From Methanosalsum zhilinae DSM 4017 (GTDB lineage Archaea > Halobacteriota > Methanosarcinia > Methanosarcinales > Methanosarcinaceae), in NCBI RefSeq assembly GCF_000217995.1, contig NC_015676.1:784103-848102 (forward strand): DNA of 64,000 bases. The letters run 5' to 3'. Shown here in pieces: positions 15,566 through 60,817 of the stretch. A model generated the notes under the pieces. It had not been told where the DNA came from, ran no database searches, and saw only the letters and a program-made list of their open reading frames with translations. A program made the position numbers and the translations under genes. The first letter of the stretch is position 1. Every line of letters starts with the position of its first letter.

Positions 15566-15670
15566 GGGCCGGTAGATCAGGGGAAGATCGCTACCTTGGC
15601 AACTGTTTCGAGGTAAAATGCGAAACAACCAGAATGGTAGAGGCCTCGGGTTCAAATCCCGACCGGTCCA
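15566..15670 (+). tRNA. tRNA-Ala (anticodon GGC) with a 33-nt intron; integration target
   Basis: The acceptor GGGCCGG pairs with CCGGTCC and contains the G3-U70 pair that identifies tRNA-Ala. The anticodon stem CTACC/GGTAG encloses a loop with GGC at 15598-15600. An intron follows position 37 (15602-15634): TTGG pairs with CCAG to form the 4-bp central helix, with 3-nt bulges CAA and AAT, the bulge-helix-bulge form cut by the archaeal splicing endonuclease. The intron also has a GTTTCG/CGAAAC hairpin. No CCA is encoded. The last 21 nt plus the following T are repeated at 31185-31206, so this gene is the attachment site of the element to its right. Confidence 0.95.
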
Positions 15671-59341: not shown

Positions 59342-60361
59342 TTAGATCAGAGCAGGAATAAATAATGCTGCAAGTCCAAAGTAAATGATCAGTGCTGTTA
59401 CATCTTTAACTGTTGTTATCATAGGATCTGATACAGCTGCTGGATCATATCCTACTTTATTGACGATCCATGGAATTATAAACCCAATGATCGATGCAAG
59501 AAGGCATACACTCAGAAGAGTCAGAAAGATTACAATCGCTAGTTCTATCATACCCTGCCATAAATAGGCTACCAGCCCCCCAATGATTCCGACAACAAGC
59601 CCTATCATCAGTCCGACTTTCCCCTCTGAAATAAAATGCCTTATTGCATTCTTATCATCAATATGACCAACGGCTAACCCTCTGACAAATATAGTTGATG
59701 CCTGGGTCCCTACATTACCTCCCATGTCCATTATAACTGGAAGGAAGAATGCCAGTGCAATTACAGTTCCAAGGGTTGCTTCATATCCTTCAATTACAAC
59801 TCCTGCAATAAGCCCTCCAGCCAGTGCGAACATAAGCCATGGAAGGCGTATTCTGAGAATATCAAAGGCAGATGATTCAAGTATAGCATAACTTCTGGAA
59901 ACTTCTGCGTCGGAAAAGACCATACCTGCACTTTTGAATATGTCTTCAGAGGCTTCTTCTTCAACCACATCAAGCATCTCCTCTGAACGCACTACACCCA
60001 CAAGCCTGTCATCCCAATTAACCACAGGAAGTGCGCGATATGGCAGATCTGACATTTCTCTTGCAGCGATTTCAACGTCTTCATCTTCTTTTAGAGTTAT
60101 TATTGAGGTTTTCATCACTCTGGATACAGGAATATCTCCCCTGGCGTTTAACAGGTCACGAAGCGACATTACTCCGATGAGATGTCCATCATTATCTGTT
60201 ACATACACATAATAAATGGTAGTTTCTTCAGCTTCTGGTCTATAATGGCGGAATTGAGATATGGTATCTTCTATAGTGTTCTCTTCATTTACTGCAAAAT
60301 AAATCTCATCCATCACGTCTTTGACAAGATTAGCGTGAATGGTGTCATAATCTTCATCCAT
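59342..60361 (-). CDS. mgtE: MgtE-type magnesium/cobalt transporter
   Basis: It imports Mg2+ and is gated by intracellular Mg2+ bound to its CBS domains. The 339-residue protein has two CBS domains (about residues 15-130: VMDEIYFAVNEENTIEDTIS, then VSRVMKTSIITLKEDEDVE) and the MgtE membrane domain (five hydrophobic segments from about residue 170) with the family motif PVIMDMGGNVGTQAST. ATG 60361 is chosen, with AGGAGGA upstream; the extra 60 codons that the frame allows upstream are the leader. The leader holds an M-box-like Mg2+ riboswitch, which fits the transported ion. Confidence 0.93.
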   Translation of the reverse strand: MDEDYDTIHANLVKDVMDEIYFAVNEENTIEDTISQFRHYRPEAEETTIYYVYVTDNDGHLIGVMSLRDLLNARGDIPVSRVMKTSIITLKEDEDVEIAAREMSDLPYRALPVVNWDDRLVGVVRSEEMLDVVEEEASEDIFKSAGMVFSDAEVSRSYAILESSAFDILRIRLPWLMFALAGGLIAGVVIEGYEATLGTVIALAFFLPVIMDMGGNVGTQASTIFVRGLAVGHIDDKNAIRHFISEGKVGLMIGLVVGIIGGLVAYLWQGMIELAIVIFLTLLSVCLLASIIGFIIPWIVNKVGYDPAAVSDPMITTVKDVTALIIYFGLAALFIPALI

Positions 60362-60390
60362 ACAAACTCCTCCTAAATTTAGCTTATCAG

Positions 60391-60425: not shown

Positions 60426-60544
60426 TTTCCTGAAATGTTTTGACCAGAAGACAGAGACCTTATGGGAATGAAAGAAGGAAAGTGTATAGATATTTGTTTA
60501 TGGTCAATAGGAATATTGTATAATATATTCCATCTGAACACTCT

Positions 60545-60702
60545 CCTCGTTCAGTTTTGGCACGATCGAACGTAGAATGGATCCTGCTCCATTCAGCTGA
60601 ATTGGTAAAGCCTTAAGCCGACAATACCTGCTTTACCCATTGGCATCTCTCGATGTTTTTGGGCACCAGCCTGTGTTTCGAAAGTAACCTCACCCAACAA
60701 GG
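60545..60702 (-). ncRNA. M-box-like (ykoK) magnesium riboswitch in the mgtE leader
   Basis: On the minus strand the closing helix is CCTTGTT (60696-60702) with AACGAGG (60545-60551), seven pairs including one U-G. Directly inside lies GGGTGAGGTT, then the conserved GGCTGGTGCCCAAAAACATC, AGATGCCAATGGGTAAA and a long helical arm. The order and spacing (158 nt) match the M-box consensus of bacterial mgtE and mgtA leaders. It lies 184 nt before the mgtE start. Family evidence is from remembered consensus; a covariance search would decide. Confidence 0.85.
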
Positions 60703-60817
60703 TGTTTTGAAATCTGTCCTGATATGATTTGCCAATACCGATATCCAACTATATATAATTATCGGGTAAAATTGCTGGAACAATTTATGATTTAATATTG
60801 TATATGGATATCATTAG

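Follow-up and report, generated by a model that had tools for sequence, protein, structure and literature searches.

In the mgtE leader of Bacillus subtilis, the M-box (the ykoK leader, RF00380 in Rfam) stands before a magnesium transporter gene. The pe20 M-box of Mycobacterium tuberculosis was described in 2026 as the first translational M-box, combined with Rho, and its logic of Shine–Dalgarno (SD)-like sequence SD1 (the anti-anti-SD), anti-SD and SD2 is backed by reporter mutations (PMC12810186). In archaea, working riboswitches are seldom documented and few natural ones have experimental backing. As of 2021, the fluoride (crcB) riboswitch of Thermococcus kodakarensis, which is presumed to be translational, was described as the sole natural one with experimental proof (PMC8241225), and in 2013 the thiamine pyrophosphate switch was the only one found in archaea among the riboswitches widespread in bacteria (PMC3766115). 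Here, we describe a full-length M-box in the leader of an mgtE gene on the minus strand of a 64,000-nucleotide (nt) stretch (the window) of the methanogenic archaeon Methanosalsum zhilinae DSM 4017 (NC_015676.1, positions 784,103 to 848,102).

The M. zhilinae leader resembles the B. subtilis type in its whole aptamer, from P1 to the terminal stems, in its conserved loops (GAGA of the P4 hairpin) and in its position before mgtE; it differs in its archaeal host and promoter and in the lack of an intrinsic terminator. The 3' strand of the archaeal P1 further contains an SD-like purine run that is absent from most of the sampled bacterial relatives. Like the pe20 M-box, it has an SD-like aptamer end as the putative anti-anti-SD, a pyrimidine-rich anti-SD midway and the true SD downstream. 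Unlike pe20, its target is mgtE itself and not an upstream open reading frame (uORF), its host is an archaeon without Rho, it appears to be of another M-box lineage and its platform is a computational prediction. Like the crcB riboswitch, it is native to an archaeon and presumed to control translation; aptamer, ligand and gene are different. The Salmonella mgtA leader (Mg2+-II, RF01056) is similar in placing the leader of a Mg2+ transporter under Mg2+ control, but it is an unrelated RNA, and the Rfam search gave no RF01056 match in the window.

We consider it fairly probable that the M-box of M. zhilinae turns mgtE off at translation when cellular Mg2+ is sufficient. The original prediction, made from the sequence alone, had covered the aptamer only; the expression platform (the switch) is an addition, and it is new for archaea, if confirmed. 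Its statement that no archaeal M-box had been characterised agrees with the open-access literature (PMC8241225, PMC3766115). No published archaeal M-box was found there, which does not prove absence as most subscription literature and the Rfam species list lay outside the search, and an earlier in-silico listing of an archaeal M-box somewhere is likely enough.

A full-length M-box aptamer precedes mgtE

The minus strand of the window matched RF00380 (Mg2+-I, ykoK-type) at 60708–60535, end to end over model positions 1–169. The assignment to the M-box class, which was to stand or fall by a covariance search, is borne out by a score of 137.1 bits, far above the gathering threshold of 44 (E 9e-31 when 64 kb are searched with 4227 families), and the three core strings quoted in its support all lie on the minus strand. 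In the whole genome (2.14 Mb; 2,138,444 bases in a single closed contig), this was the sole M-box match (E 7e-33). An extent of 60545–60702 had been proposed; the location holds and the length is slightly short of the Rfam extent of 60535–60708. The element retains 54 of the 60 most conserved consensus positions (capitals in Rfam), and the isolated 174-nt element, folded without constraint, adopts a minimum free energy structure close to that of the M-box at -55.7 kcal/mol. A GNRA-type loop (GAGA) is present in the P4 hairpin, as is typical of the family (PMC3764141).

The predicted 7-base-pair (bp) P1 helix was found as described, with CCUUGUU (60702–60696) paired to AACGAGG (60551–60545). 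Past four bulged nt in the 3' strand, P1 continues with AACA (60706–60703) and UGUU (60540–60537) to reach 11 bp, such that its 5' strand AACACCUUGUU spans 60696–60706 on the minus strand.

Covariation was assessed across 14 aligned archaeal elements, including L005, which lies below the cut-off. Paired cells made up 91.3% of this alignment compared with 83.2% in shuffles, and sliding the alignment by 1–3 columns caused them to collapse to 30–43%. Changes on both sides occurred in 22 of 49 pairs, while 10.8 were expected in shuffles and none of 500 shuffles reached as high; P1 covaries at its own base. The mgtE leader contains a genuine M-box aptamer. Chance or contamination as its origin was ruled out by the E value, the single closed contig, a thermosome-type chaperonin gene (Cpn60_TCP1) close by and a TATA-like box. 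The archaeal host named in the prediction is likewise correct, the window belonging to a closed single-contig archaeal genome.

The partner gene is mgtE, as had been expected. It occupies 59342–60361 on the minus strand (start ATG 60361) and encodes 339 amino acids (aa) with a CBS pair and an MgtE membrane domain (Pfam MgtE 8e-36); its product scored 250 bits with NCBIfam TIGR00400, over the cut-off of that model. No Pfam match to MgtE_N was found in the window MgtE, which is a short form; MgtE_N is present in the MgtE copies behind the M-boxes L008 and L044. The SD sequence of mgtE, AGGAGGA, lies at 60368–60374 on the same strand.

Predicted pairings connect P1 with the SD sequence of mgtE

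Computation supports the aptamer with its covariation, the identity of the gene behind it and pairings that exclude one another; from these we infer Mg2+ binding, regulation and its direction as follows. At high Mg2+, the M-box would fold and P1 would hold its purine-rich 3' strand (GAGGAGAGUGU, within 60551–60537). The anti-SD ACACUUUCCUUCU (60485–60473) would then be free to pair with the mgtE SD (60374–60368), closing the SD so that little MgtE is made. At low Mg2+, P1 would open, its 3' strand would take the anti-SD over 11 bp and the SD would be free.

The 3' strand of P1 is AACGAGGAGAGUGUU (60537–60551, minus strand); it has GAGGAG inside and is the proposed anti-anti-SD. In Methanosalsum leaders it reads GAGGAGAGUGU, an SD-like purine run. 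The proposed anti-SD ACACUUUCCUUCUUUC (60470–60485, minus strand) would pair with this strand in the ON state or with the mgtE SD in the OFF state. Its core ACACUUUCCUUCU, approximately 50–60 nt downstream, forms the 11-bp alternative pairing GAGGAGAGUGU / ACACUUUCCUU. The duplex amounts to -15 kcal/mol for the segment and -17 kcal/mol with flanks, and to -15 to -18 kcal/mol across the window leader (L001), that of M. natronophilum C15 (L002) and that of a third Methanosalsum (L003). Against shuffled linkers, the duplex gave p values of 0.04, 0.01 and 0.07 in L001, L002 and L003, respectively, and the Fisher combination of nine leaders, treated as independent, gave 0.0008. The alternative pairing of ACACUUUCCUUCU with AGGAGGA amounts to -10 to -13 kcal/mol.

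A scan for dual complementarity, that is, for a single linker segment complementary to both the P1 3' strand and the SD, gave p values that were weak leader by leader; therefore, constrained folding with shuffled linkers was adopted. Full leaders were folded with the aptamer pairs enforced or with P1 forbidden, without the proposed switch pairings being supplied to the model, and the probability of an unpaired SD was compared between the two states. With the aptamer enforced, this probability was 0.02, 0.03 and 0.00 in L001, L002 and L003; with P1 forbidden, it was 0.58, 0.52 and 0.36. The difference was matched by 0 of 120, 0 of 120 and 4 of 120 shuffled linkers, respectively. As the leader ends of this first test happened to favour L001, averaging over four choices of leader end is the fairer test, and here 3 of 45, 0 of 45 and 0 of 45 shuffles reached the observed difference. 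The closed state of L001 was stable across leader ends (0.02–0.03) and always lay under the open-state values. We regard the modelled evidence for closure as moderate for the window leader and stronger for its congeners. L046 switched likewise in folding (0.18 compared with 0.69; 3 of 120 shuffles).

Terminator-like hairpins followed by a U-run were found past the aptamer in 20 of 25 bacterial relatives and in none of the archaeal leaders, including the minus-strand linker of the window; the lone terminator-like match, in L005, falls within the coding region. A bacterial-type terminator was rejected for the searched linkers. Computation yields an anti-SD with alternative partners and a predicted closure of the SD upon aptamer formation, as in a translational M-box, and it shows no intrinsic terminator between aptamer and gene of the kind that marks the B. 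subtilis platform. A translational Mg2+ OFF-switch is the most likely reading because folding closes the SD in Methanosalsum leaders and because terminators occur in most bacterial relatives and in no archaeal leader.

L044 and L045, from soda-lake Methanomassiliicoccales, may be switches of another design: a single stretch of the linker pairs strongly with the 5' leader and P1 5' strand (-27 and -34 kcal/mol) and also with the SD region.

Archaeal M-boxes are patchily distributed in two phyla

The original prediction had also proposed a search of related methanogen genomes. Our scan covered two archaeal phyla and returned 13 M-boxes above the cut-off in 12 genomes, all of them before magnesium-type transporter genes: mgtE, mgtA (a Mg2+ P-type ATPase) or Nramp. 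The genus Methanosalsum contributes the host genome, M. natronophilum (G072, two copies) and G073. Further copies come from a Methanosarcinaceae metagenome-assembled genome (MAG; G049), a Methanomicrobiales MAG (G463) and a member of a small order from that same phylum (G263); the second phylum contributes six genomes of the order of Methanomassiliicoccales. The distribution is patchy: matches occur in 5 of 112 Methanosarcinaceae genomes (including a weak one), in 4 of 393 genomes of the phylum sample and in 6 of 147 genomes of the order of Methanomassiliicoccales. Below the cut-off, L005 (36.9 bits) looks decayed and precedes mgtE. Another such copy, L009 (1501–1671, minus strand, on a 3,544,738-base contig of G620), scored 32.8 bits over model positions 12–154, has no transporter gene after it and resembles a relic.

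An MgtE relative was found in only 6 of the 112 Methanosarcinaceae genomes, and the five genomes with an M-box match are all among these six. This points to joint movement of gene and switch. Among the other partners are a Mg2+ P-type ATPase at L007, an E1-E2 ATPase at L049 and, judged by sequence, Nramp-family genes at L046–L048, of which L048 was confirmed. The mgtA-type ATPase gene behind the Methanomicrobiales M-box (L007, approximately 1759–2023 and beyond, plus strand) is interrupted in frame by TAA following ERPPA and represents either a pseudogene or a MAG assembly error. At L049 (approximately 1731, plus strand), the P-type ATPase gene is separated from the M-box by a short ORF that has a strong SD of its own (MEDPDSSNSRPGDTNRVCGL) and possibly encodes a leader peptide.

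A tree was built from M-boxes of archaea (14) and bacteria (22), and in it the archaeal ones fell apart from all bacterial ones, hinting at a separate archaeal lineage. We take this as a hint and not as proof because most supports within the archaeal part fall short of 0.9, the bacterial sequences were selected for a shared P3/P4 sequence pattern and the root was placed at the midpoint.

M. zhilinae, a soda-lake methanogen, is known from Bosa Lake, Wadi Natrun (PMC4158274), and soda lakes contain little Mg2+ (PMC4158274, PMC6146748). The named archaea with M-boxes are largely from soda lakes, namely M. natronophilum and MAGs with CSSed, T3Sed10 or B1Sed10 in their names, which stem from sediments of Cock Soda Lake, Tanatar-3 and Bitter-1, respectively (PMC6146748); we assume that the MAG name CSBr16 likewise denotes a soda lake. 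The low Mg2+ of such lakes would be a reason to keep such a switch.

Further features of the leader and the genome

A TATA-like archaeal box, AATTATATATA, lies at 60750–60760 on the minus strand, and by the archaeal promoter spacing rule transcription is predicted to start approximately 20 nt ahead of the aptamer. Just 5' of P1, the leader segment GACAGAUUUC (60709–60718, minus strand) is a possible partner of 60450–60461 by fold and pairing analysis. The latter segment, AAGGUCUCUGUC (minus strand), could in the unconstrained minimum free energy fold be an ON-state partner of GACAGA in the 5' leader together with ACCUU in the P1 5' strand; in the ON fold of L001, this pairing is weak alone (p 0.11).

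A 9-aa ORF (MEYIIQYSY; 60504–60533, minus strand) begins just past the aptamer behind the SD-like GAGGAG and is probably incidental. Neither this ORF nor a GTG-extended MgtE is conserved in other Methanosalsum, and a conserved leader peptide was rejected.

The host genome has a second mgtE (L057; G000:C1:506550-507554, plus strand) that is 64% identical to the first, with a strong GGGGG SD and a divergent neighbouring gene. Elsewhere in the window, at 15566–15670 on the plus strand, Rfam placed a tRNA gene whose anticodon region is enlarged by approximately 35 bases. It resembles an archaeal tRNA with an intron and was not listed by ARAGORN in bacterial mode.

Discussion

Several results weigh against the translational OFF-switch. 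The accessibility of the L001 SD without P1 ranged from 0.05 to 0.58 at 37 °C depending on the leader ends, and with ends other than those first chosen, opening dropped to 0.05–0.22 at the same temperature. The dual-complementarity scan alone gave p 0.25 for L001. The same folding test predicted no switch in L004, L006, L007, L008 and L048; therefore, if these are translational, they either use other pairings or escape the thermodynamic model. Rfam found no M-box at the second mgtE of M. zhilinae, in contrast to M. natronophilum, in which both mgtE copies carry one. Finally, two fen MAGs (L046 and L047) and one Methanomicrobiales MAG are not from soda lakes, and these copies leave the soda-lake explanation incomplete.

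A real M-box could also control premature transcription termination, either archaeal U-rich or factor-assisted within a pyrimidine-rich linker, with the SD pairing being incidental. Canonical bacterial M-boxes terminate transcription, pyrimidine-rich stretches do occur in the linker, and the hairpins after the aptamer in 20 of the 25 bacterial relatives fit this mode. However, the linker has neither a hairpin with a U-run nor a long U-run, and folding ties it to the SD more than it does shuffled linkers; we judge termination unlikely. Improbable to a greater degree is control at the aptamer end itself, where P1 would bury GAGGAG and Mg2+ would directly block the 9-aa ORF (ATG 60533) or an N-terminally extended MgtE from GTG 60541. 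GAGGAG does lie in the P1 3' strand approximately 9 nt ahead of ATG 60533, the frame from GTG 60541 is open into mgtE, and SD1 of M. tuberculosis also precedes a poorly conserved uORF1 at the aptamer end (PMC12810186). In the other Methanosalsum leaders, however, the extension contains stops and the short ORF is different or missing, whereas mgtE keeps its strong SD and its ATG.

That the M-box is a non-functional relic of transfer, kept by chance, would suit its patchy distribution and the decayed-looking copies L005 and L009, but the intact consensus positions, the compensatory changes across archaea and the consistent transporter partners make this highly improbable. We give hardly any credence to the fold sensing another signal or ion, such as Mn2+ in the Nramp-linked copies. 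Some archaeal copies do precede Nramp-family genes, and Nramp proteins are classically Mn2+/Fe2+ carriers. Nramp-related Mg2+ transporters also exist, the partner in the window is MgtE and the aptamer retains the consensus of the Mg2+ class. M-box crystal structures with Mn2+ (Ramesh et al. 2011), as cited in PMC3764141, speak for such sensing.

The translational OFF-switch remains our preferred explanation. We propose more tentatively, as a possibility to which we do not yet incline, that methanogens of two phyla have a distinct archaeal M-box lineage, apart from the sampled bacterial ones, in which the P1 3' strand has turned into an SD mimic and a single Mg2+-dependent helix sets whether the ribosome site of the transporter gene is accessible. 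This would be a purely translational native ion riboswitch, passed among archaea of Mg2+-poor habitats. The aptamer class is old and well known; what is of interest is its archaeal setting together with the translational wiring. An isolated methanogen with a high-scoring M-box offers a concrete and easily tested case, with close relatives of the element in its own genus and others dispersed in a second phylum, and the mechanism is open to probing by point mutations. The Mg2+ poverty of soda lakes supplies a physiological reason for such control (PMC4158274, PMC6146748). The finding bears on how a riboswitch crosses between Bacteria and Archaea and on the ways in which archaea, having neither Rho nor hairpin terminators of the bacterial kind, may adapt an aptamer that in bacteria mostly serves termination.
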